Source of the DNA: a virus
IMG/VR virus record: IMGVR_UViG_3300044911_001353
Span: 1 to 30,058 of that record
Reading direction: 5' to 3' (one strand)
DNA: 30,058 nt
The notes under the pieces were generated by a model, which saw only the letters and a program-made list of their open reading frames with translations, searched no databases and was not told the DNA's origin. Below are positions 1,337 to 25,081 of this stretch, one piece after another. Both the position numbers and the translations under genes were made by a program. Within the stretch, counting starts at the first letter, position 1. Every line of letters begins with the position of its first letter.

Positions 1337-2461
1337 TCAGGTGAACGAATGGCGGCTTGCCATCTGGAACCGCACCCAAGCCAAGAGGTGATCGCCTGTC
1401 GTCCAGGTAAACGGGTCAATGCTGCTTACCGATGCCACGGTAGGAACCGAGATGCCTGAACCCGTGGCGATGATGCGTATGTATCTGCAACCAATTGAGT
1501 TGAAGCCGTCGTGATAAGTGGAGCCGTACCAAAGGTTGCCGGTGGAGTCATTGAGAATTACCTGGCCCTTCGTCAACTCCAACGTCGTAGGTGGCTGGAT
1601 CGCAGGACTGCCCGAGGGCAACGAGAAGATCGGGTTGCCTGTCACCGAAAATCCCGATGACCCCAGCACGGCATAGATCTGCAGGTCAATCCAGCCATCG
1701 CTGCGCTTGAACGTGCCCGTCAGCGTGCCGCCCGTGCCGACCGTCATGTTCGTCGCCGTCGGCGTGTACGTCTGCGTCGGTTCGGAGATGATCACCCAGC
1801 CAGCGCTGTTGTGCTGCATGAGCCGATCGGTGTCCGTCTCGTAGATCATCAGGCTCTCGAAACCCGTCGGTCGCGTCGACGATGTGCACACAACGAACAC
1901 AGCGTGCTGCACCCAGGCCGTGCCGTTGTAGCGCCACAACGTGCCGGTGTCCGTCGTCAGTGCCAACATGCCCAAGCCAGGAGCCGTGATGCCAGCGTCC
2001 CGTGCCGTCGTCGTTGCCCACGACGAGTAGCCCGGCTGCCACGACGGCAACGCGCTTGCAATACCCAACTGCTGACCCGTGTTGCCAATTGCCAGTCGGC
2101 TCGGCGCGCCAGCGGTGCGGCTCAACAGATCGCCGTTGGTGGTCATCGTGTTGGCAAACAGGTTGACCTCGTCGATCGTGGCGGCGTCCAGCACATGCTC
2201 GACGACCGCTGCATCCACATGCGCAACCGCCGACGTCCCATCGAACCCACGCGTCGTCGCCGTCAGCGTGTTGCTGCCGCCCGTGCGCACGCACAGCACC
2301 TTCTCCTCGGTCGCCAGCCCCCGATCGATGGCGATCACGAACGCCGTTGCGCCAGACGGATACGTCGACGCATCGAGCACAGCAATCGCCGTCGTGGCGT
2401 TGGTGATCGGACCATTCAGCTTTGTGGCAACTGCGCCACCTACGTACTGCCTGCGAGGCAT
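1337..2461 (-). CDS. Tail fibre / host-binding-like structural protein
   Basis: 374 residues, beta-rich, Thr/Ser/Gly-rich, no membrane segment. Residues about 15-90 match the beta module also present in the capsid protein and in the connector protein (see findings), ending in a TTRGFDGT...H pattern. The next part (about 100-240) has repeats typical of fibre proteins, such as short GTLWRYNGTAW and DRLMQHNSAGW units spaced by acidic turns. The C-terminal third is a predicted jelly-roll-like run of strands. The ATG follows AGGAGG by five bases and lies eight bases after the large tail protein gene. Its position between tail and lysis genes is the usual place for fibres. The receptor is unknown. 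Confidence 0.85.
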   Translation of the reverse strand: MPRRQYVGGAVATKLNGPITNATTAIAVLDASTYPSGATAFVIAIDRGLATEEKVLCVRTGGSNTLTATTRGFDGTSAVAHVDAAVVEHVLDAATIDEVNLFANTMTTNGDLLSRTAGAPSRLAIGNTGQQLGIASALPSWQPGYSSWATTTARDAGITAPGLGMLALTTDTGTLWRYNGTAWVQHAVFVVCTSSTRPTGFESLMIYETDTDRLMQHNSAGWVIISEPTQTYTPTATNMTVGTGGTLTGTFKRSDGWIDLQIYAVLGSSGFSVTGNPIFSLPSGSPAIQPPTTLELTKGQVILNDSTGNLWYGSTYHDGFNSIGCRYIRIIATGSGISVPTVASVSSIDPFTWTTGDHLLAWVRFQMASRHSFT

Positions 2462-2469
2462 GAGCCCTC

Positions 2470-4281
2470 CTACGTTGTCAGCAACTTCACTACCAGGATG
2501 GCCTCGAACCAGCCACCGTCGTCACGCCAGTTGTTCGGACGCAACTCGAACGCATCGATACGGACTCTCGTAACGTAGTCCCCAACGCGAAACAGCACCT
2601 TCGTCTTGTCGCGCCACAGCGCCTGGATGTGAGCGAACTCATCCTCCAGATCGAGCGACAGTTCCATGCCCATGCCGTCACCCGCTGTGACCCGACTGTG
2701 CACGATCAACGGCACGATCCACTGCTCGGACGGCGGCGGCACCGGATACGCCCGCAGCACCCACTTCAACACCGTCGGCGTGTCGCTGCCGTTCGACGCC
2801 AGATCAACACGCACCCGGCAACTGATCACGTCGATGGCGTTCAGGTCGGCAATCATCTGCCGCAGGCCGACGCCCGATTCGGTCAGCGAGTAGACCGCAT
2901 CGCCTTCCTCGTCGTAGATGGTCAACGTCACCGACTGTCCGGTGGTCAACGGCTTGAAGTCCACGACCATCTGCGACAGGCGCTTGCGCTCCACCGTGCC
3001 GAACAGAATCTTGCCCGAGTCCAGATAGCCAGTCGTGTCGTACGCCGTCGTCGACTCCACAAACACGCCCTGACCGGCCACCGCATACGCCAGCCGGCCA
3101 TTCAGACGCGCCACGCCCGTCACCGCTCCAGCCACGTTCGCCTCGAGGTCGGCTGCGTACGCAGGCTGCAGCGCCTCGACGAACGTAGTCAGATCAAGCC
3201 GTGCCGTGCCAGCCGTCGTGGCCCCGTCGTAGAGCGACCACCCGGTGAACACATACTGGCCCTCGGCGCACGCCGCCTGCACATCACCCAGGTCTGCCAG
3301 CAGCGGACCGTACGTGAGTGACCCGTCTGCGGCCGTCTGTGCCAGCCGTGCGCCCTTGTTGGAATAGATCACTGCGCCACCGGCAAACGACACGCCGCCT
3401 CGCAGCAGTTCGCCCTCAGGGAACGGTGCAGCGTCCTGGGCGATGACGAGGTTTCCGCTCGAATCGGTCGTCGTTGTGTACAGCTCGGACCGGCTGCCAG
3501 CGAAACCGCCGACGTAGATGCGCGAGCCAATCGCAAAGATCGTGGTCCAACGGAACGCTGACTGCTGATGTGTGCGAACCGTCGTCAGCGCGCCGCTGCC
3601 TGCCACGCTGCTCAACGTGCTGCCAATGCCGATCAACAGTCGGTTGCCAACAAACGCCACGTTCGACACATCGCCCGTGACCGGCGTTCCGTACGCCGTA
3701 GGTGTGGTCGCCGCTCCGACGTACTTGACGAGATTGGTCGATGTCGCCACGAACACATCAGAGCCGTCCGTGGCGAACGCCTGCACAGTGCCGCCCGGGG
3801 CCGTCATCGTCGACCACGCACCGAACCCAGTCGAGCGATACAGCGTTGCCCCGTCCGAGGCGTACAGGTAGTTGTTGAATCCGATCAGCCGTGGCGCGCC
3901 CGACGACACCGAACGGGACAACGTGCTTGCTCGATGCAGCGTCAGTTCGTTCTTCGTCCACACGTTGATCGACCGTGATCGATCGAACCGGAACGGGTCC
4001 GACGTGTCGTCAAGTTCGCTGATCTCCTGATCGGCGCCACGGTGCCACGAATAGCGGTAGCGCGACCATGTGCCCGACGCGTTGAACAACGCATCCGATG
4101 GCTCGGCGCTGGTGACGACGCCCTCACGCAGCGTCTGCAGGCTGCTGTGGCGGTACTCCGTCAGGTCGATCGTGTACGTCCGACCATCCAACAGCACCGT
4201 GTGTGGCAGCACCCGCTGCGCGCTGAACGTGCCGAGATAGAACGGTGCCCCGCCGCCGAAGAACGGGATCGACAGGCCCAT
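2470..4281 (-). CDS. Large beta-rich tail protein, nozzle or stopper-like
   Basis: 603 residues starting at an ATG in a TGATG overlap with the connector gene. The N-terminus is short and hydrophobic with Gly (no clear signal peptide cleavage expected in a virion protein). The middle, about residues 130-400, is a series of repeats in which short strands alternate with Gly/Asp turns (for example GFNNYLYASDGATLY, and GNRLLIGIG), as in beta-propeller proteins. The C-terminal 180 residues form further strands ending in a domain with WRDDGGWFEA. Podovirus nozzle proteins (T7 gp12 type) also contain propeller-like folds and are encoded after a small neck protein, which is the context here. The assignment is by architecture and position only. 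Confidence 0.85.
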   Translation of the reverse strand: MGLSIPFFGGGAPFYLGTFSAQRVLPHTVLLDGRTYTIDLTEYRHSSLQTLREGVVTSAEPSDALFNASGTWSRYRYSWHRGADQEISELDDTSDPFRFDRSRSINVWTKNELTLHRASTLSRSVSSGAPRLIGFNNYLYASDGATLYRSTGFGAWSTMTAPGGTVQAFATDGSDVFVATSTNLVKYVGAATTPTAYGTPVTGDVSNVAFVGNRLLIGIGSTLSSVAGSGALTTVRTHQQSAFRWTTIFAIGSRIYVGGFAGSRSELYTTTTDSSGNLVIAQDAAPFPEGELLRGGVSFAGGAVIYSNKGARLAQTAADGSLTYGPLLADLGDVQAACAEGQYVFTGWSLYDGATTAGTARLDLTTFVEALQPAYAADLEANVAGAVTGVARLNGRLAYAVAGQGVFVESTTAYDTTGYLDSGKILFGTVERKRLSQMVVDFKPLTTGQSVTLTIYDEEGDAVYSLTESGVGLRQMIADLNAIDVISCRVRVDLASNGSDTPTVLKWVLRAYPVPPPSEQWIVPLIVHSRVTAGDGMGMELSLDLEDEFAHIQALWRDKTKVLFRVGDYVTRVRIDAFELRPNNWRDDGGWFEAILVVKLLTT

Positions 4282-5192
4282 CAGCCAAACCGCACCGGAT
4301 ACATGGAGCGGAGCTTGTTGATCTCTTCCATCTTCCGGTTCCGATACAGCGCCTGCGACACCTGGCCCTGTTGCACCAGCGAGCCCGGGGGCACCTCCTG
4401 GGCCCGACGAGGCTCATCCTGGGTAGTACGCGCCGACATGCCTGCCTCGTTGGCCTGGAGCAGCCGCAGCCGCACACCCATCGACAGCACATCGAGCATC
4501 GACTCTTGCAGCCCACCATCCACGATCAAGTCCTGCGCTAGCGTGAACGTCGTGTGATACGGCATCGCCGCCTTGACGATGACCTTTCCAGCAGCAACCG
4601 GATCGATGAACCGCAGCGCCAGACCCGACGTGGCAAACGCCGACCACACCGCCGGGTCGTAGCGCACCAGGCGCAGGTTCGCTCGAGGCCATGCCGTCGA
4701 CTGTGTGGTTGAGCCGACGTCCGTCCACTGCCGATGCGCGTCGATGATGCCGTAGCAACCCGCCATCGACACCGGCAGTTCGACCGTCTCCTGGCTGTCA
4801 GCGACCGTCAGTTCCTCGGTGACCACCTGATACAACTGCGGGCCGTACGAACCAATCTCTTCCAGCATGGCGTCGTAGATGTCCAGGCCGGTGAAGCGCG
4901 AGTTGATCCACACTTCGGCCCCTGCATCGTGTGCAGCAGCCGTCGAATCGTGGAACGCACGAATGACTGTGGCCGTCTTGCTCGCCGTATCCACCGACAC
5001 CACACGCAGCAGTTCGGTGCCAATCGACAACATCGACCCCGCCACCACGTTCGCCGTCAACGTCAGCGTCATCGGCACCGTCGTCTGAGACGACGTGATC
5101 GCAGAAGCCAACGTGTTGATCTCGTTGCGGTAGCCAGACGACAGTTGCCGCCGGATGCGGTCAATGGTGACCGAGACAGTGCTGCGCGCCAT
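4281..5192 (-). CDS. Head-tail connector / adaptor-like protein
   Basis: 303 residues. It starts at ATG after AAGGAG with a good spacing. The first 25 residues are a helix with many Arg. Residues about 26-96 carry the shared beta module (GTELLRVVSVD, then VIRAFHDSTAAAH). Then come an acidic helix with EEIGSYG and a long mixed region. A final charged helix (about 240-295) is rich in Arg, Gln and Met. In tailed phages the gene directly after the capsid gene commonly codes for a neck protein that joins portal to tail, and this protein is placed between capsid and tail genes. A tail-completion role is possible instead. No profile-level match can be claimed. Confidence 0.85.
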   Translation of the reverse strand: MARSTVSVTIDRIRRQLSSGYRNEINTLASAITSSQTTVPMTLTLTANVVAGSMLSIGTELLRVVSVDTASKTATVIRAFHDSTAAAHDAGAEVWINSRFTGLDIYDAMLEEIGSYGPQLYQVVTEELTVADSQETVELPVSMAGCYGIIDAHRQWTDVGSTTQSTAWPRANLRLVRYDPAVWSAFATSGLALRFIDPVAAGKVIVKAAMPYHTTFTLAQDLIVDGGLQESMLDVLSMGVRLRLLQANEAGMSARTTQDEPRRAQEVPPGSLVQQGQVSQALYRNRKMEEINKLRSMYPVRFG

Positions 5193-5214
5193 GATCTCTC
5201 CTTACGCGAAGGTT

Positions 5215-5248
5215 GACCCCGCACGGTGTGGCTGCACCGTACGGGGTC
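5215..5248 (-). terminator. Hairpin after the capsid gene
   Basis: Stem GACCCCG / CGGGGTC (7 bp), one mismatch, then ACGGTG / CACCGT (6 bp), loop TGGCTG. It fills most of the 72-base gap between the capsid gene and the connector gene, by far the largest gap in the head block. There is no U-tract. A partial terminator or an mRNA-end stabiliser here would let capsid protein be made in excess over neck and tail proteins. Confidence 0.55.
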
Positions 5249-5264
5249 ACCACCTACGGACAGA

Positions 5265-6437
5265 TCAGACGAGGCCCGAACCCGGCAGCGCCTGCGAGCT
5301 GTCGAGGCCGCTCCACTTCGCCATGTGATCCTGGCCCTTGACCTGGAAGCCGCCCTCGCACACCATCATGTACGTGTCGGTGTCGTCGGTCTTGGCCAGC
5401 TTCTGCGTGATCAGCGGCTGGAACTGCCGGTACACGAAGTTGTCCCGGCTGTAGGCGAAGGCGTTGTTCGCCTTCACCCAGCGGTTGCGCACCAGCACGA
5501 CCTCGTTGAACTCGGTCATCACGGTGGTCGCCCGACGACGCCCACGACGGGCATCCTCGATGTTGACCGTCTGCACGCGCTCGTTGCCGGCGATGTTGTT
5601 CAGCGCCTGGAAGTTGACCGGCCGGCTCATCAGCACCTCGAACATGCCGCCCTTGTCGTACGCCGCCTGCTGCATGTCTTCGATGGCCTCGATGGTTAGC
5701 CAGTACGACGACGAGTCGACGTTCGACGTGACGAAGTGGTTGAGGCCGCCGGTCTGACGCCGGTTGTCGGCCGACCGAACGTGCTTCACGCCATACAGCG
5801 CCGAGTTCTCGATGCCGAGGTTCAGCGACTGCATGGTGTTGAGCATCTGCTTGTTCAACTCGTTCGGCACGCCGTACTTCGGAATGCGCTGCTCGGTACG
5901 CGACACCTGGATCTTCTTGCTCCAGATCTGCGTGTAGTTGCTGTACTTGTCACGGCCTTGGAAGTTGGTCGAACCGATCGAACCTTCGATCAGGATGGTG
6001 CCCAAGCCGATCACGTCGGCGCCGGTCGAGTGCGACGCAGCGGTGGTGTTGGTGTCGGATGCCGAACCACGCACCACGGTCAACACTTCGGTGCTGGTGT
6101 TGATGGCCGTCACGACCATCACCTCGTCGTCGATGCGGATGCCGTCGCCCACGGCGAACTTCACGGCGTCGCCGGTGTTCAGCGTGACGCTGGTGACCGA
6201 CGAGTTGATGGTGCCGTTGAGGGTGCCACGGGGCAGCGGCACCTGCTCCTCGAGCCAGAAGAACTCGACGTTGTCGACCGGGGTGCGCGGCATGAGCGGC
6301 ACACCGTCGGCGCCGGTGCCCGAGAGCAGCGGCAGGTCCATCGGGGAGAGGATGTAGATGAGTTCGTCGATGTTGACCTTGGTCTCGACGGTGAGGTCAT
6401 ACGAGTAGAAGGCGGGGCCTGCGAGTTCCTGTGCCAT
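5265..6437 (-). CDS. Major capsid protein (SU10 / DUF5309-like)
   Basis: 390 residues, the usual size for an HK97-fold shell protein. It opens with a short N-arm containing DLTVETKVNIDELIYILSP, as in the SU10-type capsid proteins grouped as DUF5309. After a short linker, residues about 74-143 form an inserted beta module (GDGIRIDDEVMVV ... VVRGSASDTN ... H..GADV). The central part has many Asn/Gln/Arg and an RRGRRR basic run near residues 293-298. The C-terminus ends in GFQVKGQDHMAKW followed by a flexible tail. Upstream are a scaffold-like gene and a small gene, downstream a hairpin and the connector gene, which is the standard head order. The family name is from recall of the pattern, not from a search. 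ATG follows AAGGAA. Confidence 0.85.
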   Translation of the reverse strand: MAQELAGPAFYSYDLTVETKVNIDELIYILSPMDLPLLSGTGADGVPLMPRTPVDNVEFFWLEEQVPLPRGTLNGTINSSVTSVTLNTGDAVKFAVGDGIRIDDEVMVVTAINTSTEVLTVVRGSASDTNTTAASHSTGADVIGLGTILIEGSIGSTNFQGRDKYSNYTQIWSKKIQVSRTEQRIPKYGVPNELNKQMLNTMQSLNLGIENSALYGVKHVRSADNRRQTGGLNHFVTSNVDSSSYWLTIEAIEDMQQAAYDKGGMFEVLMSRPVNFQALNNIAGNERVQTVNIEDARRGRRRATTVMTEFNEVVLVRNRWVKANNAFAYSRDNFVYRQFQPLITQKLAKTDDTDTYMMVCEGGFQVKGQDHMAKWSGLDSSQALPGSGLV

Positions 6438-11269: not shown

Positions 11270-14200
11270 TCAATCCAGATCGGCTTCTGGCCGGATGATA
11301 GCCAAGTAGAACGACCGCAACTCCGGCCGTCGCGTCATCAGGTCGTCCATCATCCGCTCGAACGTCGCCTTGGCCTGCTCCACGCTGGCTCGGCCACGTG
11401 CCGAACCGTCCTCTCGCAATGTTGCCAGCGCAATCTTGTACTGGTCCCACGTGGTCATGATCTCACGCAGACCCTCCAACTGTGGCGATGGCGGTACGAG
11501 CGGATCGTAGACCGCCGTGCGCATCTCGTCGATGACCGATGCACGCCGCTGCCGGCCGTCGCTGCTGCTCATCTGCTCGTCGAAGATCGGGTGTGCTGCT
11601 CGATACGCCGTCGATGTCGATTGCCAATACTGGTTGGCCCTCTCGACACCCGACTCGTTGCCTGCCATCTTCATGCGATCGACGGCATCGAGGTACTGCT
11701 TCTTCAACGCGAAGTAGCGCGGTGCAGCTTCCTTGTACTTGAGTTCGGCCAAAAACTCCTCGGGCGTCAGCCTGCGACGCAAGCCTTCGATCAACTGCTG
11801 GTCGTAGGCATACTGCGACCGCTCGTCGCCTTCCTTCGCCACAGGCAGCAACCACGGTCCAGCGAACGGCATGGCCTGCAAGTAGTCGCTGTGCTGCGTG
11901 TAGAACTGCACTGCCTCTTCGGTCGTAGGCAACGACGCTCCGCTTTCCGACTCGGTCTTGCCAACCGTCAGCGCAATGGGGTTGACGATGTCGAACAGGT
12001 TGGCGTCTTGGTTCAACTCCAAGAACCTCACGGTGCCTTCGTCGATGCCCAGTTCCCGGATCAACGTCTGGTACTGGCCGTTGAGGATGTCCCGTGGGTC
12101 TTGCGCACCAAATCCGGTGAAGCCGCCTGTCTCGCCGGTGATCAACGCCTGCGGTGGGCCCGGTGTGAAAAACCCAGCAATGGCCTGGCTGAACAGAATC
12201 ACGCGTGCGTGCTCTCGAGCGCGCCTGAGGAACTCGTCACGCATCTGCGCGTTGGCGTTGTCGGGCAAGCCATCACCGATGGCGTCGAGGTGCGCCATTG
12301 CGCTCATCAGCGCCGACGAGTAGCGGACGTTGGCTTCGTCCACACGCCCGAAGCCACCCTGCATCACGCCATCCCAGATGTTCGTGACCGACGTCGGGAT
12401 GAGATGCTCCAACGCATTGCGGTTGGCTGCGTAGTCACCCAACATCGCTCGCTCGATAGGTGCTAGGTCAACGAACTCAGCGAACATATGCGTCGCCAAG
12501 TCCATCGGCACCGACACGAACGGCGAGAACGAAGGCGTGCCGAACCGCTCCGACAGACCAGGAAACATCGACGACGTAGGCGACTGGAACATCGTGCCAA
12601 TCGCTGCAACACCAACACCCGGCAGCACCTTCGACATGGTTTCCACCAGCAACCCCGAACCTGGGTAGACGAACCAATCCTGGCCTTGCTCGTCCTGGCG
12701 AACGATGCCCACGGTGCGCAGGCCCATGTAGGTCAACTGCGCCTTGCGGATCACCGTCGGATCGTCCAGGATCGTGCGCCCCCACCGCTTCAAGAAGTTC
12801 TCTTCGGCGTACCAAAACGGCAACAGGCCTCGCCCATACTCAGCGAACTGAGTGCGCACCTTCTGCGAGTCGATGAACGGCATGATGTCGCGCAGCGCCG
12901 CCTCGGCAGCCAAGTTGCCGGCTGCGTCGTTCGCGTGACGCACCTCCTTGGCGTGAGCGGCAATCGCCTGTGCCTCGTCCATCGACATCGTCTTTTCACG
13001 ACTGATGGCGCCGTACCGGCGCTCCTGGCCGACGTAGTAGTTCCACGACTTGTGCAGCCGTTCGGCGTCGTAGATCGCACCAACGGGCAGCAGCCGCTCC
13101 ATCTCGGCCAACAGATCGCGCTCCACAGTGCTGCTGTTGACGATGTCCCGCAACCCGTCTGCCAACCGCTCATCACGCATGATCTGTGGCATGGCCGAGT
13201 TGAGCGGCAGTCCCCGAAGCAACTCATTCTCCAGCCGGGTCATGTCCTTCGACGTGACGCGCAGCGACTGCGAAGTTGCGCTGCTCTCCGGCAAGGTCGC
13301 CACCCGTGTGTCGATCGCTTCTCTGATGCGTCGCCAGGTCGGGGCAATCTCGTCGGCAGGCAGTGAACGCAGCCACGCCATCGACTCCCGAGCGCCCCAC
13401 TTCTCGGCCGAGTACCCGTCCACCGATGCCATGCGGCGCACAAGATCGCTGACCTCGTCGATGCGCGTCTGATCAACCACCGCCCGACTGTGCAGCACGT
13501 TGGCGAGAGCCTGAGTTGCGCGCCCCGTCAGTTCGGGATCGAGCATCCACTGGTTCGCCTGCTTGGCAAACCGGTACCGCTGTGCAAAGAAGTGGAACGC
13601 CATCGGGCGACGAACGATCGCATCGATCGCTGGCCCGATCACTTCGTCGAAGCCGTAGCGGACGATCCTCTGCCACGTGTTCTCCTTCAACGGTTCCAAC
13701 GCAGGCCCGATCGCAAACTGCGGACCACCGTGCGCCTCGTCAGGAACGTGCGTGTCCTTCGACCGATAAACCGGCACCCAGTCGGGCGACGGTTCCAACC
13801 GGCCGCGCACGGTAATCATCTCAGCCTTGCGTTCGTGACGCAAGATGCCACGCTGCGCATCAAACGCATCTTCGATCATCGAGCCAATCAACTGCCACAT
13901 CAGATCGTTCGGCTCATAGGTCAAGGACGCTGGCTCCATGAACAGCCCGTCGCCGTACTTGATCTTCTTGCCGCGCTCATCGACGAACGTCGACTCGGGG
14001 TGCAGTTCCTCACCCTCTCGGACTTCGATGATCTCCTTGTTGTCCTTGCCGTAGCGGTACACGCGCGACTTGCGCACCGTCTGCTCAGTGCCGTCCTCGG
14101 CCTTCATGGTGCGCTCATCAAAGCGGGCACGCTGCGTCTCACGGCTCTTCTTGCCGGTCATCTGCTTGATATGCGTCCACATGCGATCGGCGTACGCCTG

Positions 14201-17200
14201 GGCGGCGTCCGGGTTCTGAATCTCGCTCGCCAACTGCACGCGTTCCTTGACGAAGTTGCGGTGCGCTGTCCAGATGGCCGGCAGTTCAGTGCCCGGGCGC
14301 GTTGCGATCGGGCGAATCTCCGAAGTCAACGGCTCGCGTGCATTGGCTGCGTCAGCACGCATCTGCGCCAGGTCATCGAGCAATGCGTCGTCCTGCGTTG
14401 CCGACCGAATCTGCATCCGCTGGGCCAACGGGCTCATCACGCTCGTCGACCGGTTGTCAGTCACGGCGCGAGGCACACGCACAGCGAACACCTCTGGCAC
14501 CTCAGGGCCGAGCTTGCCGTGACGAGCCATCAGGTTCTTCATCGCCAAGTTGAGTTCGCTGACCAGCGCCTGATCGGCAAACAGCATGTCGAGGTCGGGC
14601 AGGTTGTCAGCCGGATTGGGTGCCGTGAAGTAGCCACGGATGGCCGGGCGACTCGACTGCGCAACCGTGCTGTCGTCGAGCAGATCGAAGCCGAAGAACT
14701 GCTTGCCCCGGCGGTACGCCATGTCCATCTGCTCGAGATACATGCTGACCAGTTGGGCACGATGTTGCAGGATCTGCGAAGCGTTGCCGATGCCTGCTGC
14801 GCGTGCCATCTCGCTCACCAACAGGTCGGCCAGATCACCAGCGTTGCGCGCCTGCTCGCCTTCGTACATCGGAGGCAGCGAATCCCACATGGAGCGCACC
14901 GCTTCGTCAGGGATGATCAGCGCGCTGTCGGGTCGGTAGACGGTGACGTTGTCGTACTCGGCGTGGTTGGAGCCGCCCGGCGACTGGAACGACAACGCTG
15001 CTCGCTCCTGCACGGTGGTGTTCTCGAAGTGCCCGGCCAGCAACGCACGCACGTCGGCGTCGGCCTCGTCGATGTTGTTGTACAGCCGGTAGGTGCGCAT
15101 GTCGCCCTGCTCGACAGCGAGACGGCGCGCCTCGTCGGCCAACACCTGCTCGGCGTCCAACGCCGCCAGCCGCTGATCGAACCCTGCCAGTACGGCTGGA
15201 TCGATGTCCTCACCCAACTCCTGGGCGTCATCGAGCGCCTGCTTGCGTTCTGCCTTCACGGCCTTGCGTGCTTCGTCCCGCTGAATGCGCGCCAGGCGAC
15301 GAGAGGCGTCGGCGCTGTTCGGGCCGTACAGCGTCTGCGGCGACGTGTACAGGTGGTTCATCAACTGCCGTTGGTAGTCGTGCTCGTCGATGCCTCGGCG
15401 CATTGCTGCTGCCAGACCGTCTTGCACCCGGCTGAGCGCGTCACGCACGTCGTCGTCGATCAACACTTTCACAGTGTCGAACATCGGCGGCAGATCGGGC
15501 ACGGTGTTGAAGGTCGCTTCCGATGGCAGGATCTCGCCCGTGCGGGTGTACGCCCACACCTCGTTCTTGACCTCGTTCGGCATGTCCCGACGCCACTTGA
15601 GCACATCACCGACGACCTCGGTGTAGCGAGCCAACACTGCGTCGGTGACGTCACGCACCTCGTCGAGCGTGATCGGCCCAGTCTCGGGCAGCCGGTTCTT
15701 CACCAGGGCGAAGAACGGGTCTTGACGAGCCACCGCTTCCAACGTGACGCGTGCAACCTTCGTGTCGTTGGCCGAGAAGCCGAGCAGCAGTTCGCGCACC
15801 AGCGGATCGTCGATGCGTGCGGCCTGGTCCAAGAAGCTCGCCACGTCGTCGTATGTCAACGACGACGGCAACACGCGCGACAGCACCTCGGTCGCCACAC
15901 GCCGGCCACCCTCGTCGAGTGCAATCGTGTTCAGCACGCCCTGATGAGCTGCGTAGTTGAACATCGGATCACCGATGACGCGTTCGTGCCGCTTCCAGCC
16001 GCCACGCATCGCCACGGCCCGAACGGTCTTCATGCCACCCTGGCCGTCCGGCACCTCAAAGGTCTTGAGATCGCTGCGCTCGTACCCACGCTCGAAGTTG
16101 CCTGCCTCGGTGGCCGACACCTCGCGCATCAACACCGTTTGGAACGTCTTGGCGAACTGCTCGCCTGCTTCCACGGTGTAGTCGTTGACACCGCCAGCCA
16201 CCAGTCGGCGCCACGACGACGGCGACCCCATCAACAGGGTGTCGGCGTAGTCGGCCACGTTGAACCACGCCTTCTCCGACGTGGGCACCATCTTGGCGAA
16301 CCGACCCTGACGGGTCATGGCTGCACGCAGTTCCCGCTCGGACGCACCACTGGACAACTGTCGACGAGCGTCGCCGCCGATGCGATCCAGCATCCGGTTG
16401 ATCGGCTGCTGCAACCCTAAGCCACCCCCGCCAGGCACCTCGAGGCCCGACCGCAGCGTCACCTGCATCGACTCGGGCGTGAGCCAATACTGCAGGTTCT
16501 CAGCGAAATCGCTCATGCGCCGCTGCATCGGAGCCGTCCAGTCGAACCGATTGAGCATCCGCTCGACGGGCCGCATCATCTTTGGCAACGGGCCCTGCGA
16601 GTACAGCAACGCCTCCTCGGCGGTGAGCGCACCCTTGCCAACCTTCGCTGCGCCCAACTTCTCGACCTTCTCGATCACGTTGCGCCATGCCCGGTAGCGA
16701 CCGACGTACTGACCGCCCATGTTCTCCACGATGGAGCCGAAGCCGCCACGCAGCATGAAGTTGATCCACTCTTCACCGGCAGCGCGTGGGATGAATGCCA
16801 TGCGCAACAGCACGGCAGGCTTCCACACCTGGTTGACGAACGAGTCCAACACCTTGACGTCGGTCACGCCCATCACCTGCGACACGAACCCCGAGCGCGT
16901 GAGCTTGCGCAGATCGGTGAGGTTCGGCATCATCAGGAACTGCGCCGTGTCGTCCAGCAGCGGCGACGTGACCATGCGTCGGCCGTTGATGTACGTGCGA
17001 TCGACCGTGCCGCCCAGGCCGTATGCGTGCTGGGCGTGCAGCAGGAACTTGTCGACGAACTCCTCGCCGCCCTTCAACGACCGCATACCAGCAATCGTCA
17101 ACCCGTTGTCCAAAGCGGTGAGCATGGCTGCGCCACGGGCATGCCCGGTTGGGTGCTTGATAATCTCGTCGAACCACATGCGCCGCATGTACTCGGGCAT

Positions 17201-19420
17201 CGACGTCAACCGCAGCACCTCGACGAACTGACGGATGTTCTCCGGCGCGCCTTCGCCCACCAACTTGATGCCCTTCGTGGGCGAAATCATGGTGGTTGCC
17301 ATCTGCATTGTGGTGCCCACGGCGTGCGACGTGCGAGGCAACACCGTGGCGACCCTGCGGCCCACCTTGCGCGCCAGCGGGTTCACTTCCTTGTACATGG
17401 CGTACTCGTCCAAGAACGTCGCCGCCCGCTCGTCGATCGGCAGCGCCAACGTGCGTTGCGCAATGTCCGACAGCCGGTCGGTGATGGCCGAGAACTCCGA
17501 CGTCTTGCGCTGCAGCGGCCGGCCGTTCTGCGCGATCGACAGTTGCAGATCCTCCAAGAACTGAATGTCGTCGTCGGGCAACAAGTCGTGCTTGCCGAGA
17601 CGGTTGGCAAAGTCGAACATCACGTCGTTCAACTTCGCAGGCTCGTCAGCCAGTACATCCCAGCCAGTGCGCCCCGGAGCCAAGAAATCCCTGTTGTTCG
17701 CCACGACCTGCAGGAACGGAATGTCCTCCTGCACCGGGCGATGCAACCGCAGATGGGCAGGCAAACCGTCCATGACACGGTTGACCCCCGACTTCTCCAT
17801 CTCCTTGAGCATCTGCCTTTCCGACCGAATGTCGGTGAGGCCGCTCGAGAAGCTGCGCACCTTGCCAGCCGTACGCGCCCACGCCTCGTTGCGGTAGTTG
17901 AAGCCCTTGAGCATCAACTGTTCCTTGTTGCGATAGGTGCCGATGCCGGACAGGATGGACTTCATGTCCTTCACATCCTTCACGTACGCCCGGATGTGCT
18001 CAGCGCCGAACTCGGTCGGCGTGATGACGCCTTCTCTGATGCCGTTCTCCCGGTAGGTGCGCAGACCTTCCCACAGCGACACGTTGTCGGTGCCCAGACG
18101 ACGCGCCATTTCGTAGTCGTCGGTCATCACCGCTTCGGCCAACTTGGTGTGCAGCCGCTTCACCGACGGCACGTTCTCTGCAATCTCGTTGAACCGCTGG
18201 ATGCTGAACGCATCGTCGATCACGTCGAGTCCGAGACGGTGGAACTTGACGACATCGTTGGCGCGCCCAAGCATCAGGAACGGATCGACCGCAATCTGGA
18301 ACAGCGCGTCGGCGCCGCCCGAGATCATCGTGTAGATCGCACTGTCCTTCTCCACCCACGGCAACGCATCCGCCAGGTCGCGTCCAATGCTGATCTTGCC
18401 GTTCTGGAGCTTGTTGACCGCCTCCAAGAACACCGGCTCCGTCATCAACTTCTGCAACGACTGCATCACCGCCTGGTGCTGCGCCGTGTTGGGCTGTGCA
18501 ATGCCATCGGCAATGCGACTCAGTTCACTCAGGTACGAGTTGTTGCGCTGGGCAGCGTCCGTCTCTCTCGCCCCGGCGACCTCGCGAGCAATCTCGTAGA
18601 TCGACCGATCGGAGATGTCTGCAATCTCGACGGCCAGCGTCTTCAAGCGAGGGTCGCCCAACAGCCCTTCGGCGTACCGACTGGCAGCGCGATCGAACGC
18701 ACGCTCGCCGTCGCGTGTGTCCATCCACGCACGCCCGAAGTCCATCGGGTTCAACGGGTCAGCCGCAATTGAGCCTGCTACTGCGCCACCCAGGCCGGCG
18801 GCTCCAATTGCGCCGAGCGCCAGCAGTGATGACCCGCCGGTCGGAATTGCTGCAATGGCAGCACCGATGCCCAGCAGCGCGCCGCCCAGGCCCGCCCACT
18901 GCTGACCGTCGTCCATCGTGCGGATAGCGCGATAGATGTGGGCAGGCTGATCGCCCACCCATGCCAGACCTTGCAGCGCCGGTTGCCAGATCGGCTTGGT
19001 GACCTGACCGAGCCCTTTCAACGGTGCAGCAACGATCTGGAACGGCAGTTTGAGCGCATCGCCCAGCATGTCGGTGACGCCGTACTCATCGACCTTCTGC
19101 GGCTGGTACCCCTGCTGCGTCAACGCCATCTGCTGCGCTCGGGGCAGGCGCGCCCACACCATGCGCTGCATCGCCGGAGTCATTGACTCCACGTTGCTGC
19201 GCAACTGGTCGGCCGCCATCATGCCTGCCAACGCAAACGAGTTGGTACCCAACTGGTCCGTCGAGATCGGCAACGAGGCCATTCGCATCGCCAACTGCGC
19301 GTCGTTGCGCACCAATGGGTTGATGCTGGTCACCAAACGAACACGGTTGTTGATGTCGATGTTCTTCTGGATCGCCGTGATCAGTTCGGACTCAGGGTTC
19401 CAGTTGCTCCAGTCGGTCAC
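11270..19420 (-). CDS. Giant virion-type protein, 2716 aa, probable ejection or polyvalent protein
   Basis: Starts at GTG in a GTGA overlap with the preceding gene, GAGGAG six bases upstream. It takes 27% of the window. Residues about 177-220 form a Gly/Ala-rich hydrophobic segment (two short membrane-like helices). A further hydrophobic stretch is near 2230-2340. Around 855-900 there is VWKPAVLLRMAFIPRAAGEEW, which recalls large virion proteins of actinobacteriophages. Near 1370-1430 is a highly charged coiled coil (RDEARKAVKAERKQA). Near the C-terminal third, PFWYAEENFLKRWGR resembles a segment in large polyvalent-type proteins that are injected with phage DNA. No protease, polymerase (no DxDxD), lysozyme or kinase motif was found by eye. 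It is far too large for a neck protein and its place directly after the portal gene supports an internal core or ejection role. A tape measure is a less likely reading, as no tail tube genes are seen. Confidence 0.9.
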   Translation of the reverse strand: MTDWSNWNPESELITAIQKNIDINNRVRLVTSINPLVRNDAQLAMRMASLPISTDQLGTNSFALAGMMAADQLRSNVESMTPAMQRMVWARLPRAQQMALTQQGYQPQKVDEYGVTDMLGDALKLPFQIVAAPLKGLGQVTKPIWQPALQGLAWVGDQPAHIYRAIRTMDDGQQWAGLGGALLGIGAAIAAIPTGGSSLLALGAIGAAGLGGAVAGSIAADPLNPMDFGRAWMDTRDGERAFDRAASRYAEGLLGDPRLKTLAVEIADISDRSIYEIAREVAGARETDAAQRNNSYLSELSRIADGIAQPNTAQHQAVMQSLQKLMTEPVFLEAVNKLQNGKISIGRDLADALPWVEKDSAIYTMISGGADALFQIAVDPFLMLGRANDVVKFHRLGLDVIDDAFSIQRFNEIAENVPSVKRLHTKLAEAVMTDDYEMARRLGTDNVSLWEGLRTYRENGIREGVITPTEFGAEHIRAYVKDVKDMKSILSGIGTYRNKEQLMLKGFNYRNEAWARTAGKVRSFSSGLTDIRSERQMLKEMEKSGVNRVMDGLPAHLRLHRPVQEDIPFLQVVANNRDFLAPGRTGWDVLADEPAKLNDVMFDFANRLGKHDLLPDDDIQFLEDLQLSIAQNGRPLQRKTSEFSAITDRLSDIAQRTLALPIDERAATFLDEYAMYKEVNPLARKVGRRVATVLPRTSHAVGTTMQMATTMISPTKGIKLVGEGAPENIRQFVEVLRLTSMPEYMRRMWFDEIIKHPTGHARGAAMLTALDNGLTIAGMRSLKGGEEFVDKFLLHAQHAYGLGGTVDRTYINGRRMVTSPLLDDTAQFLMMPNLTDLRKLTRSGFVSQVMGVTDVKVLDSFVNQVWKPAVLLRMAFIPRAAGEEWINFMLRGGFGSIVENMGGQYVGRYRAWRNVIEKVEKLGAAKVGKGALTAEEALLYSQGPLPKMMRPVERMLNRFDWTAPMQRRMSDFAENLQYWLTPESMQVTLRSGLEVPGGGGLGLQQPINRMLDRIGGDARRQLSSGASERELRAAMTRQGRFAKMVPTSEKAWFNVADYADTLLMGSPSSWRRLVAGGVNDYTVEAGEQFAKTFQTVLMREVSATEAGNFERGYERSDLKTFEVPDGQGGMKTVRAVAMRGGWKRHERVIGDPMFNYAAHQGVLNTIALDEGGRRVATEVLSRVLPSSLTYDDVASFLDQAARIDDPLVRELLLGFSANDTKVARVTLEAVARQDPFFALVKNRLPETGPITLDEVRDVTDAVLARYTEVVGDVLKWRRDMPNEVKNEVWAYTRTGEILPSEATFNTVPDLPPMFDTVKVLIDDDVRDALSRVQDGLAAAMRRGIDEHDYQRQLMNHLYTSPQTLYGPNSADASRRLARIQRDEARKAVKAERKQALDDAQELGEDIDPAVLAGFDQRLAALDAEQVLADEARRLAVEQGDMRTYRLYNNIDEADADVRALLAGHFENTTVQERAALSFQSPGGSNHAEYDNVTVYRPDSALIIPDEAVRSMWDSLPPMYEGEQARNAGDLADLLVSEMARAAGIGNASQILQHRAQLVSMYLEQMDMAYRRGKQFFGFDLLDDSTVAQSSRPAIRGYFTAPNPADNLPDLDMLFADQALVSELNLAMKNLMARHGKLGPEVPEVFAVRVPRAVTDNRSTSVMSPLAQRMQIRSATQDDALLDDLAQMRADAANAREPLTSEIRPIATRPGTELPAIWTAHRNFVKERVQLASEIQNPDAAQAYADRMWTHIKQMTGKKSRETQRARFDERTMKAEDGTEQTVRKSRVYRYGKDNKEIIEVREGEELHPESTFVDERGKKIKYGDGLFMEPASLTYEPNDLMWQLIGSMIEDAFDAQRGILRHERKAEMITVRGRLEPSPDWVPVYRSKDTHVPDEAHGGPQFAIGPALEPLKENTWQRIVRYGFDEVIGPAIDAIVRRPMAFHFFAQRYRFAKQANQWMLDPELTGRATQALANVLHSRAVVDQTRIDEVSDLVRRMASVDGYSAEKWGARESMAWLRSLPADEIAPTWRRIREAIDTRVATLPESSATSQSLRVTSKDMTRLENELLRGLPLNSAMPQIMRDERLADGLRDIVNSSTVERDLLAEMERLLPVGAIYDAERLHKSWNYYVGQERRYGAISREKTMSMDEAQAIAAHAKEVRHANDAAGNLAAEAALRDIMPFIDSQKVRTQFAEYGRGLLPFWYAEENFLKRWGRTILDDPTVIRKAQLTYMGLRTVGIVRQDEQGQDWFVYPGSGLLVETMSKVLPGVGVAAIGTMFQSPTSSMFPGLSERFGTPSFSPFVSVPMDLATHMFAEFVDLAPIERAMLGDYAANRNALEHLIPTSVTNIWDGVMQGGFGRVDEANVRYSSALMSAMAHLDAIGDGLPDNANAQMRDEFLRRAREHARVILFSQAIAGFFTPGPPQALITGETGGFTGFGAQDPRDILNGQYQTLIRELGIDEGTVRFLELNQDANLFDIVNPIALTVGKTESESGASLPTTEEAVQFYTQHSDYLQAMPFAGPWLLPVAKEGDERSQYAYDQQLIEGLRRRLTPEEFLAELKYKEAAPRYFALKKQYLDAVDRMKMAGNESGVERANQYWQSTSTAYRAAHPIFDEQMSSSDGRQRRASVIDEMRTAVYDPLVPPSPQLEGLREIMTTWDQYKIALATLREDGSARGRASVEQAKATFERMMDDLMTRRPELRSFYLAIIRPEADLD

Positions 19421-19894: not shown

Positions 19895-21727
19895 TCAGCC
19901 TCCCATGACCTGCATCAATTGACGCATCCGCTGAACGTCACCTGGCACCTCGATCTGCTGCTGCTCGGGAGGTGCGATTGCGGGGGACGGCTGCTGTAGC
20001 GCCCCAGGGCCACCGGCCATGCCAGGCATGGATTCGGGCGGTGCCACCATACCTTCCGGTGCGGCTGGTGCAGGGGTTGCCTGACGCTCGCGCATCATCT
20101 TGTCGGCCTTCTCGACGGCGGTGAAGATGTCCTCGCCGCCGGACAGTTCACGACGGATCATCGCCGCCACCGGCAACGGCATCTGCCCGGTTGCCAACTG
20201 CTGGATGATCGACTGCTTCAACGCTTCCTCGAACTGCTCCTCGTCTACCAGCGCGCCCTCGGCCTCGGGATCGTTGATCCACGGATGCTTCTGACGGAAC
20301 GTGCGACGGCTGATGGTGCCCGTGCCCAACAGCGAGCCAAGAATCTGCGTCTGCTGCACGACGTCGGCGCCAGCGATGGCGTACGACACCGTGTTGTCGT
20401 ACGTCTCGATGTGCTCCTCGGGCGTGAACGACACACGACCCGGATCGTCGGGCCAGCCCGAGAACAGGACGTACTTCTGATCGGGCCAGTAGCCCTTGTA
20501 GGTCGCCAGGATCGCATGGTTCAGGTGCGGCATGTACGCCTCGCTGATCTCATGCAGTTCCTGAATGCGGTGATCAACGGCCATGCCAGCGAGGGCGTTG
20601 ATGCCAGCGCCGGTGCGCAGCGCGCCGTACGTTTCACCCCCCGTTTGGGGGACAAGGCCGGTGGAGACACGGAAGTTGCGCTCCAAGCGGTCGATGATCT
20701 GGCCGGTGCGCTGATCGGGCGTGTTGCGTAGCATTCCGATCGACTCCACGTCAAGCACCATGTTGATCTCGCCCTCGCGTCCGTCCTTCCACTGGCCGCC
20801 GACGACCTGGGGCATTCCGCTCTGCCGGCCGATCGCGTACATGTCGGGGAAGATCGCCTTCTCCTGGGCGACGATGTCCAACGCCATGAGCTTCGCCTGC
20901 AGGTCGACGTTGCCGAGCATGGAGCCGATACGGCTGGCAATCTTGCCGAGCGACACGTTGTGCGGCACGACGGCCGGGACGATCTCCGCACGGTTCGGAT
21001 ACGCAGGGCTCAACTGCATCCACGGTGCAGACATGGTGCGGTTGTAGTAGGTGTTGACGTAGTCACGCACCGGGCCGACGATGCCGAACACGATCTGATC
21101 CAGGTCGAACCACTCCACGCAGTCCCACATCTCGTGTGCTTCCATCGGCGGGATTGGACCACCCTGCTCACTACGCGCGCGTGGGTACAACCGACGGAGG
21201 TGCTCGCCCGAGTGGCGTGTGATGAACGCGCAGTAGTCCGGTGGCCGCAACTGCTCGTTGGCCTGCGGCTCGACGAGCGAACTCAGCGGATCACGAACCT
21301 CGATGCGGGGCATCTTCGTCTCGAAGTCGGGCACCACGACCAGCGAGCCGGTGTGGTACGCCGCCAGTTGCCGGTAGAAACGGCGACGGCCGAGCAACCA
21401 CTTCGATTCGTGGTACGTCGCAGCGATGATCTTGCGCCGGGTCGTGGCGTACGCACGCGAGCGACGGCCCGTGTCCTTCGATGGATCGATGGCAGGCGAG
21501 TACACGGTCGGCCGCACGCTCGATGCGCGCATTGCCATCGAATCGACGGCCTCACCAATCAGCGCCGGGGTCAGCGGAGGCAGGCGTGGCTCGTCGTTCA
21601 ACGATGGCATCGGGATCACCCAGTCGCCGTCGTAGCGGTCGAGCACATCCTTCATCGCCAACAGCGTTGGGCCCTGGATGCGTTGCAGGTCCAACACGAT
21701 CTGCACGATCTCGTCGAAGGTTCTCAC
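19895..21727 (-). CDS. Portal protein
   Basis: 610 residues. The start is the GTG in a GTGA overlap with the terminase stop, with GGAG at a proper distance. A longer reading frame exists upstream but lies inside the terminase gene and was rejected. The size and the position directly after the large terminase are those of a portal, the ring of twelve subunits through which DNA enters the head. The middle is a mixture of strands and helices with many Tyr/Trp, and the C-terminal region from about residue 430 is helical, with a Pro/Gln/Met tail (about 545-610) that could enter the head. No short diagnostic motif exists for portals, so the name rests on context. Confidence 0.85.
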   Translation of the reverse strand: MRTFDEIVQIVLDLQRIQGPTLLAMKDVLDRYDGDWVIPMPSLNDEPRLPPLTPALIGEAVDSMAMRASSVRPTVYSPAIDPSKDTGRRSRAYATTRRKIIAATYHESKWLLGRRRFYRQLAAYHTGSLVVVPDFETKMPRIEVRDPLSSLVEPQANEQLRPPDYCAFITRHSGEHLRRLYPRARSEQGGPIPPMEAHEMWDCVEWFDLDQIVFGIVGPVRDYVNTYYNRTMSAPWMQLSPAYPNRAEIVPAVVPHNVSLGKIASRIGSMLGNVDLQAKLMALDIVAQEKAIFPDMYAIGRQSGMPQVVGGQWKDGREGEINMVLDVESIGMLRNTPDQRTGQIIDRLERNFRVSTGLVPQTGGETYGALRTGAGINALAGMAVDHRIQELHEISEAYMPHLNHAILATYKGYWPDQKYVLFSGWPDDPGRVSFTPEEHIETYDNTVSYAIAGADVVQQTQILGSLLGTGTISRRTFRQKHPWINDPEAEGALVDEEQFEEALKQSIIQQLATGQMPLPVAAMIRRELSGGEDIFTAVEKADKMMRERQATPAPAAPEGMVAPPESMPGMAGGPGALQQPSPAIAPPEQQQIEVPGDVQRMRQLMQVMGG

Positions 21728-23535
21728 AGGCGCGCTCCAATGGGGATGATCAGACTGCTGCTGGTCTGCTTCCACGGTACCGCTCTTGTCTGCCACTGGC
21801 CGGTATTCGCTGCACCAAGATCCGTGCGCTTGTATCGCTGGCGCCACAGAATCCACACGAACCACAGCGCCATCACCCGGTCCTGGCGCAACTTGGTGCC
21901 GCGCTTGCCCGGCTTCCACGCACGCAACTGACGCACCAACTCCTCCATCTCGTTGCGAGTCAAGTCGTCGTCGGCCCAGGGAATGATGATCTCTTCGCGC
22001 AGGAACGACTCGCACATCGACGCTACGCCGATGTTCTCGTCGTACTTGTTCCAGCCCGTCAGGTGCTCGCGCAGTGCGAAGCCGTAGTGCGACTGCATGT
22101 CCAGCAGGCGCTCATCTCGAGCCAGGCCGCGCTGGAAGTTCATCGACTCCACGACGACGTCGGTGACGTAGCCACTCAGGTTGCACCAGGCCACCACGTC
22201 GTTGACGCACTGCATGATCTGCTCGTTGCGCTGCAGGCCGGCGTCTTCACGAATACGACGCACGATCAGTTGGCCCTCGGGCGTCGCCTCGCACGCAATG
22301 ACGCAGTTCTGGCCGCCGAGCGCCGGGTCGAGGCCGACGTAGACGATGTTGCCGGGGGTGACGTTGTGCTTCAACGACAGCAGCGGGTTCTTGCAGCGGT
22401 CGATCATCTCGTCGGTGAACACCCGGTCGGTGTTCGACGCGCCCGGCTCCTGCATGTAGTTGCGGTCCCACGCCTCCTGGCCGACCTTGCGGCGCTGGCG
22501 GTCCAACTGGTCGAGGTTGTACCGCTCGGGCCACAGCGCCTGCTGCTCGCCGGTGATCGGGTCAGTGCGGATGGCTTTGAACTTGATGACCTTCAGGATG
22601 CCCGACAGCGAGTCGTCGTTCGCCAGACGGCTGTAGATGTCGTCATCGCCCACGCGCGTGCCCGCAATCGTGGTGATGCCGTACTCGCCGGGACGCGACA
22701 GTGCGTCTTGGCGCAGCCACTCCTCCATCGAGTCGGTCAGGTTCAGCGTCTTGGTGGACTGCAGGTCGTCGATGTGCAGATGGTCGGTACGGGTCGACAC
22801 GATCTCGCTCTTGAAGCCCAGCGCCTGCATCGAGTAGTCGCGTTCGTCGTGCGACGACTTCTTGAACACGTTGAAGTAGCCGGACCCCCACGGCTGGGCG
22901 ATCATCCGGTCACGGCCCTGGCCGGTCGGCGGCTTGAACGGACCCCAGTCGTTGACGTACTGGGGGTACGGGCCGTCCGGTTCCATGCGTCGTTTCACGC
23001 GCTCAAGGATCTTCTGCGCGATGCGCAGGTTGCCACCAGCCACGGTCATGCGTCGGTCGGGGTGCCGGGCCAACGTCTCGGACGCGTAGTTCTCGTAGGT
23101 CGTGGTCTTGCCGTGCTCGGGCGGCCACAGCGCCATGAGGATGTTGCCCGGAGGCAGGTTCTCTAGCTCCTGAATGAACAGCAACTGGAACCAGGCATAC
23201 GACATGCCGAAGTACCGCTCGGCGTACTCGGCGTGGCCGCCCGAATACTCGCCTCGGAGCACGTTCTTGCCCGCTCGGGCGACATCGACACGCGCTGCGA
23301 ACGACCGATCACGGTTGCGCCACTGCTTGTAGGCGTTGCGGCCTACGCCGACCTCGGCCAACGCCTCGTCGATGGTGCTGCCGGTGCCGATCAGCTCGAT
23401 GAAGCGGTCCTTGCGGCGGTTTGCCTCGATGGACTTGCCCTGATACGCCTTCATCGTCTCGTAGCGACGGGCTTGGGGGTCTTCCTTGGGCTTGGTGCGC
23501 AGGTTGGCCCACGGATCATCGACTAGATCGGTCAT
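21724..23535 (-). CDS. terL: Terminase large subunit with N-terminal helix-turn-helix
   Basis: 603 residues, ATP-driven packaging motor and DNA cutter. Residues 43-75 look like a helix-turn-helix (STIDEALAEVGVGRNAYKQW), as in small terminase subunits. Walker A is PPEHGKTTT (138-146). Walker B is HLHIDDL (252-258) with Asp where Glu is more usual. The ATPase coupling motif is around TTIAGTR (288-294). The C-terminal nuclease has an acidic triad candidate D403 (VGLDPALGG), E463 (VVVES) and D552 (LRQDRV). The start at 23535 has only a weak ribosome site. A separate small terminase gene was not seen, see findings. Confidence 0.93.
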   Translation of the reverse strand: MTDLVDDPWANLRTKPKEDPQARRYETMKAYQGKSIEANRRKDRFIELIGTGSTIDEALAEVGVGRNAYKQWRNRDRSFAARVDVARAGKNVLRGEYSGGHAEYAERYFGMSYAWFQLLFIQELENLPPGNILMALWPPEHGKTTTYENYASETLARHPDRRMTVAGGNLRIAQKILERVKRRMEPDGPYPQYVNDWGPFKPPTGQGRDRMIAQPWGSGYFNVFKKSSHDERDYSMQALGFKSEIVSTRTDHLHIDDLQSTKTLNLTDSMEEWLRQDALSRPGEYGITTIAGTRVGDDDIYSRLANDDSLSGILKVIKFKAIRTDPITGEQQALWPERYNLDQLDRQRRKVGQEAWDRNYMQEPGASNTDRVFTDEMIDRCKNPLLSLKHNVTPGNIVYVGLDPALGGQNCVIACEATPEGQLIVRRIREDAGLQRNEQIMQCVNDVVAWCNLSGYVTDVVVESMNFQRGLARDERLLDMQSHYGFALREHLTGWNKYDENIGVASMCESFLREEIIIPWADDDLTRNEMEELVRQLRAWKPGKRGTKLRQDRVMALWFVWILWRQRYKRTDLGAANTGQWQTRAVPWKQTSSSLIIPIGARL

Positions 23536-23817: not shown

Positions 23818-24089
23818 TAGGCAGGTGGTGTGGCGTCCAGCCCAGACAGGATGCTGGTCGCCTCGGCACGCTTGTTGGCAGCAAGTGCTTTGATCGCCTG
23901 CAGCAACGCATCAATCGTGTCGTCAGTCGTTGGCTGCTGGTCGTTGGCCGAGTTGAAGTCTCGACCGTCGTCGGGGATAGCAGTAAAGCCTTCGAGCGGT
24001 TGCCAGTCCGGGTTCGCGTCGGCGTCCCACATGACGACGTTCTGCACTACGCCATCGGCGTCGAGGATGAGCCAGCGTTGAACGCCCAT
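23817..24089 (-). CDS. Tail-fibre-assembly-like small protein
   Basis: 90 residues, starting at the ATG in a TGATG overlap with the glycine-rich protein. A GTG nine bases upstream (24098) is an alternative. The first half has ILDADGVVQNVVMWDA and WQPLEGFTAIP. This is the pattern I know from small phage chaperones that follow fibre genes (a strand with ..V.NVV.WDG, then W.PP.G). The second half is a helix. It lies directly after the adhesin-like gene, the usual place for such a chaperone. Family identity was not tested. Confidence 0.7.
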   Translation of the reverse strand: MGVQRWLILDADGVVQNVVMWDADANPDWQPLEGFTAIPDDGRDFNSANDQQPTTDDTIDALLQAIKALAANKRAEATSILSGLDATPPA

Positions 24090-25054: not shown

Positions 25055-25081
25055 AAGCATTTCCTCCCGTCGATTAGCTCA

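Follow-up and report, generated by a model that had tools for sequence, protein, structure and literature searches.

The reuse of one small domain across different virion proteins is already known from the Ig-like domains (Fraser et al. 2006, cited in PMC8718954 and PMC10385173). E-loop insertion domains in capsid proteins are known from crAss phages and T4, and in the crAss001 major capsid protein gp32 the I-domain is an E-loop β-barrel at the capsid surface, which adds wall thickness and stability (PMC10172136); the I-domain of the P22 coat protein is a six-stranded Greek-key barrel (PMC5701804). In the tail, domain VI of the JBD30 baseplate hub gp53 (8RK3) is described as a small six-stranded β-barrel that braces the baseplate, and structure 8VJH holds the tail-tip protein of phage Chi (PMC11945409). 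In this study, we describe a module of about 75 residues that, judged by sequence profiles, is one homologous unit common to the capsid protein, the connector and a fibre-like protein of a single virus, and that belongs among such moveable structural pieces.

The window, that is, the whole stretch of DNA analysed, comprises 30,058 bases of the record IMGVR_UViG_3300044911_001353 and has the genes for its virion proteins on the minus strand (Table 1). It also encodes a 2716-aa protein (11270-19420, minus strand) without a Pfam match and with a weak PHROG match over 75 residues only, possibly an internal virion protein, from its size and place alone, and a protein whose C-terminal domain is rich in glycine (24089-25060, minus strand) and which matches families of tail fibres and minor tail proteins.

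Table 1. Genes of the window and the three copies of the module
Feature	Position	Strand	Evidence and remarks
Major capsid protein, 390 aa	5268..6437	-	Pfam SU10_MCP PF17236, E 1.9e-46
Connector, 303 aa	4281..5192	-	phrog_7578, E 7.5e-45
603-aa protein, phrog_11667, function not assigned	2470..4281	-	Between connector and fibre genes, without module
Fibre-like protein, 374 aa	1337..2461	-	phrog_23837 virion structural protein, E 6.4e-23, residues 3-150
Module copy 1, capsid residues 70-147	5997..6230	-	AlphaFold2 model and profile match
Module copy 2, connector residues 24-97	4902..5123	-	AlphaFold2 model; profile E 1.8e-25
Module copy 3, fibre residues 12-92	2186..2428	-	Profile E 2.7e-16; sequence profiles only
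Terminase large subunit	21724-23535		Further along the window
Portal-like protein	19895-22015		Further along the window

An earlier sequence-only reading of this DNA had proposed the shared β module and had quoted two short strings from each protein, all six of which are found at the places given: IRIDDEVMVV (100-109) and VVRGSASDT (121-129) in the capsid protein, LSIGTELLRVV (55-65) and VIRAFHDST (76-84) in the connector, and RGLATEEKVLCV (47-58) and TTRGFDGTS (69-77) in the fibre-like protein. For each protein, homologues were gathered by whole-protein similarity and aligned, and the segments were then compared as profiles. The whole-family profiles, aligned with no segment given beforehand, had their best local matches between connector 28-96 and capsid 73-144, between connector 27-108 and fibre 14-99, and between fibre 10-95 and capsid 68-150, which coincide with the segments proposed earlier. 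The profiles of the modules themselves matched with probabilities of 98.8% (E 9.4e-17) for connector and capsid, 96.6% (E 5.8e-10) for connector and fibre, and 96.0% (E 4.1e-9) for fibre and capsid; with deeper families the values were 98.8, 95.7 and 94.3%, respectively. The maximum among the column-shuffled controls (200 per pair, 600 in total) was 7.1%, and control segments elsewhere in the same proteins and in the 603-aa family gave 0.1-0.6%. The comparison of each segment with the others that had been suggested as a check is thus far above the shuffled controls (94-99% vs at most 7.1%), and the shared module is borne out.

The same domain can be followed into solved structures. A mixed profile finds the Chi tail tip 8VJH, with two copies (E 7.4e-12), the JBD30 hub 8RK3 (E 6.5e-8) and the VP1 capsid 9IN6; a weaker match is to the N-terminal residues 13-90 of the GP4 fibre 8JOV chain 1 (E 4.5e-4). 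The connector-only profile reaches the JBD30 hub (1.3e-6) and the Chi tail tip (6.3e-6), and the capsid profile matches the VP1 capsid 9in6 over its length (E 1.1e-79) and, with its module columns, the JBD30 hub (0.0039) and the Chi tail tip (0.0067). The matched residues of JBD30 (505-555 of the 735-residue hub) would correspond, from the order of the domains, to domain VI. No solved structure was found with the fibre-only profile, made of modules only, so that the GP4 match rests on the mixed profile.

Convergence of short β-strands rich in Thr, Ser, Val and Gly, instead of homology, might be invoked for a module this short, all the more as its 72 columns do not settle the deep branching among host-protein types. 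We regard this explanation as scarcely credible, since column-shuffled profiles of the same composition and other β-rich segments of the same proteins stay at or below 7.1% and 0.6%, respectively, the alignment covers all six strands, with one Glu and one Arg kept in 20/20 aligned modules, and profiles built independently converge on one and the same domain in the solved tail-tip proteins. The column shuffles and the other segments of the same proteins likewise rule out chance or composition as the source of the similarity.

Capsid and connector copies can be related even without profiles: a single-sequence search of the record with the capsid protein returned, apart from the query, only the connector segment (32% identity, E 1.3e-4). 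An independent first sign came from the PHROG searches, in which the connector family model phrog_7578 also matches residues 72-143 of the capsid protein (E 1.7e-6). The fibre copy, unlike this pair, is detectable with profiles only, and its membership rests on them, as the structure models cover capsid and connector. A profile search of every ORF in the window (E at most 10) found no fourth copy, and the 603-aa protein (2470-4281), taken as negative control, was without the module. The three genes had been called neighbours; they do lie near each other, but not directly adjacent, the 603-aa gene separating connector and fibre. An alignment of 20 modules has one Glu and one Arg invariant, corresponding, together with a His, to Glu105, Arg123 and His136 in the capsid copy, Glu60, Arg78 and His88 in the connector copy, and Glu52/Glu53, Arg71 and His81 in the fibre copy; the Arg is missing from the fibre copies of some relatives. 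The His noted earlier at 10-13 residues past the Arg is conserved in connector and fibre copies and within the close capsid group; its conservation does not extend to every capsid relative. Identity between the copies within one phage is 24-32%.

In the AlphaFold2 models (mean pLDDT of 76 for the capsid protein, with the module mostly at 79-89 but 61 at residues 121-130, and of 84.5 for the connector, with the module at 85-95), each of the two modules has six strands, at 70-73, 83-86, 98-102, 105-113, 118-123 and 141-147 in the capsid protein and at 24-28, 38-41, 54-57, 60-68, 73-77 and 93-96 in the connector, in register with the profile alignment. The strand pattern agrees between these two copies, the ones covered by the models. 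The strand count and the description of the JBD30 domain suggest that the module may form a closed barrel. A structure search with the connector model returned the VP1 capsid over about 130 columns (E 4.4e-4), a match most simply explained by the shared module. Many predicted viral proteins, including tail fibres, are matched as well, and the tightest matches of module size are at 2.1-2.2 Å over about 80 columns.

The capsid protein is a major capsid protein of SU10 type with the HK97 fold: it scores 159 bits against the SU10_MCP model (cutoff 24.1), and in the structure search its model was matched to the VP1 capsid 9in6 (E 1.2e-25), to the SU10 capsid 7z45-7z48 and to HK97 and encapsulin capsids. 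In the model, the module is flanked by a strand at 58-63 and by strands at 163-179, followed by a long helix at 193-215. The capsid protein of HTVC106P matches the module-free core (E 5.1e-47) and is without exactly the module, between Trp61 and Glu151-Gly152. The capsid module is thus a clean E-loop insertion, lacking in a relative. SU10-type capsid proteins of about 460 aa from five other contigs (L137:161-1543, L138:771-2153, L139:868-2250, L154:1788-3167 and L157:1788-3167) have a longer, different-looking insertion at the same place of the E-loop, in which no module was detected; in these five contigs the module occurs in a separate protein of 231-238 aa.

The 303-aa connector is probably a head-to-tail adaptor ring protein, as judged from its model. 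The top Foldseek matches of this model are tail-complex, connector and neck proteins, including podophage, P1, VP1, N4, DEV and GTA proteins; the matches to adaptors are weak (E 3.5e-4 to 0.05), with a best TM-score by target of 0.52 (P1 connector). The predicted module sits after the first helix, ahead of a body resembling head-tail adaptors. A second type of connector carrying the module, at residues 191-260, was seen in a 319-aa protein (L161:5431-6387) with weak N-terminal matches to the head-tail connector models TIGR01560 and TIGR02215.

In the fibre-like protein, a chain of 374 residues, the module is the N-terminal domain. Many metagenomic relatives share the first 130 residues only and diverge beyond residue 130, so that the protein combines a conserved N-terminus with a diverging C-terminal part, as expected of a phage tail fibre. 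A second short region, at residues of about 190-275, recurs in many proteins of about 200 aa on metagenomic contigs that are different in other respects, and within single contigs it is found in several consecutive genes. Two other contigs (L162:4829-7946 and L155:5992-8866) have three consecutive short genes with the module near each N-terminus, which look like runs of related fibre genes; one stretch (L162:4829-5965), considered as a capsid protein, was dropped from the capsid set, as it has no capsid core.

At least nine other contigs (L003, L099-L101, L103-L108) have the same combination of capsid, connector, 603-aa and fibre genes, three of which carry the module. The records of eight related genomes with this gene set were searched whole and each holds exactly three copies (8/8), as the sequence-only reading had suggested looking for. 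A wider set of contigs has the connector, the 603-aa protein and the fibre in common. Among the latter, three loci have, upstream of the connector, a gene that by eye resembles a glycosyltransferase (L009:2958-4115, L010:3503-4669, L014:3376-4527), and no capsid gene of the window's type was detected there. The genome of Streptomyces phage Manuel has two copies, in connector and fibre, and its capsid protein, of N4-gp56 type, is without the module; Bacillus phage phi18-2 has one copy per genome, in the capsid protein. As phi18-2 has the capsid copy alone and Manuel the connector and fibre copies, the presence of the capsid copy can be separated from that of the connector/fibre pair. Thirteen PHROG families match the module, among them tail, head and baseplate proteins, and long tail-type proteins of 904-1093 aa (L145:529-3807, and others on L147, L151, L152, L153, L156, L159, L163 and L166) contain two or three copies per chain.

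In a tree of the modules, the capsid copies (13/13) of different phages fall into one clade, as do the connector copies (32) and the fibre copies (30), each in a clade of its own; a second tree again recovered the close capsid group and the connector group. Clustering follows the host protein and not the phage; the copies are therefore old, and no recent exchange is seen. The forks joining the host-protein types are not settled by these trees of 72 columns, and a tree that keeps the two capsid groups as one is not rejected by the AU test (p 0.485), so that the module may have entered the capsid family once or twice. The clustering by host protein leads us to reject recent gene conversion among the copies, and with it goes most of the appeal of recent module copying among the three genes in this phage lineage, which the proximity of the genes, with three copies within about 4 kb, might suggest. 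Such copying is extremely improbable, given also that the same three copies are found in 8/8 related genomes and that their identity within one phage does not exceed the range given above; no related phage with two nearly identical copies was seen. The domain moving between virion proteins that had been envisaged is thus upheld as far as its recurrence in many virion proteins is concerned, but not as a recent exchange.

The homology, the position in each chain, the strand pattern (two of the three copies, by model), the conservation of the set and the antiquity of the copies are probably best accounted for by one homologous barrel module in capsid, connector and fibre, with bracing or docking between virion subunits as its likeliest role. 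The capsid copy, as an E-loop insertion domain, would most likely lie on the outer shell and brace neighbouring subunits; the connector copy, inserted past the first helix of a probable head-to-tail adaptor, would most likely point outward from the ring; and the fibre copy, as the N-terminal, virion-proximal domain, would most likely be the fibre anchor. This outward placement and this role are suggested by analogy with JBD30 domain VI and the crAss001 E-loop domain, and by the fibre terminus concerned.

The N-terminal end of a phage fibre is normally the virion-proximal end. The position of the fibre copy at this end therefore makes anchoring likelier than receptor binding, and it argues against the binding of the host surface that the sequence-only reading had offered as an example. 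In its full form, that idea would make the module an adhesive, ligand-binding domain whose three copies engage the same glycan or protein on the host surface, as has been proposed for Ig-like domains on capsids. Many carriers of the module are annotated as tail or fibre proteins, and among the close capsid group the mean identity is lower in the module than elsewhere in the protein (58% vs 74%), a variability that would also fit an exposed, adapting surface. The fibres, however, diverge past residue 130, in the part to which one would assign receptor binding, the copies in one phage are distant in sequence and cluster by host protein, and the JBD30 homologue braces the hub and is not described as binding a receptor. 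An adhesive function is thus quite unlikely. A partner common to all three copies, at shell, neck and fibre alike, is conceivable but finds no support, as there are phages with the capsid copy only and phages with the connector/fibre pair only.

A more restricted proposal is that the modules dock to each other, barrel to barrel, with the N-terminal module of the fibre on the connector module at the neck, the capsid copy having been acquired independently. Connector and fibre copies do occur together in every locus in which the fibre gene is covered, also where the capsid protein has no module (Manuel); however, most of these loci were found by fibre similarity, so that the co-occurrence is partly built into the sampling, and the Bacillus phage group has the capsid copy alone. 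We consider this docking at the neck unlikely. In a broader version, the module would be a common docking unit, joining fibre, connector and the capsid copies of the portal vertex through one repeated barrel interface. Such contacts between fibre, neck and shell would explain why exactly three copies are kept in the related genomes, yet this version is distinctly improbable as well. Bracing or docking between virion subunits, as proposed above for each copy in its own place, is the role that we favour.

The module adds to the Ig-like domains a second one that is widespread among virion proteins, and it is absent from Pfam and NCBIfam: no Pfam model covers it, and the capsid, connector and fibre proteins have no match in NCBIfam. 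No paper naming it was found in the literature searched, which was thin in structure papers. Its recognition ties together, through sequence homology, an insertion in the E-loop of a capsid protein, one in a probable head-tail adaptor, the likely anchor of a fibre and a domain of tail-tip hubs, and provides a structural assignment for many unnamed phage proteins. It also makes the origin of capsid insertion domains testable, as the capture of a domain also used in tails.

Compared with the systems described so far, the module resembles the Ig-like phage domains in being a small β-domain found in many kinds of virion protein, but it has six strands and barrel-type homologues, where those have the Ig sandwich. 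Against the Ig, Big_2 and FN3 families of Pfam there was no meaningful match (the best, PF20622, Bacterial Ig domain, at E 0.018 for 1/20 members), and membership of an Ig-like family was dropped. The I-domains of crAss001 and P22, compared by description, are β-barrels inserted in a capsid protein of HK97 fold, like the capsid module; no sequence link was found between them and the module. That of crAss001, of about 100 residues, lies in the E-loop, as the capsid module does, whereas that of P22 is inserted in the A-domain. The Beephvirinae phages of Streptomyces (Manuel, Dennebes) have a homologous connector with the module, a fibre N-terminus with the module and adjoining genes of the 603-aa type, and differ in the capsid protein, which in Manuel belongs to the N4-gp56 family and not, as in the window, to the SU10 type. 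The putative tail fibre of phage GP4 (8JOV chain 1) has its match, although weak, at the N-terminus, the same place as in the fibre-like protein of the window. JBD30 gp53 domain VI and the Chi tail tip are homologous to the module by sequence profile, and the six strands described for the JBD30 domain agree with those in the models of the capsid and connector modules, although the JBD30 domain belongs to a siphophage tail-tip hub and the module of the window to capsid, adaptor and fibre. The closest parallel for the shell is the capsid protein of Vibrio cholerae phage VP1 (9IN6), which is of the same SU10 type, about 18% identical to that of the window in the structural alignment, and carries a homologous module, with a longer loop, at the same place.
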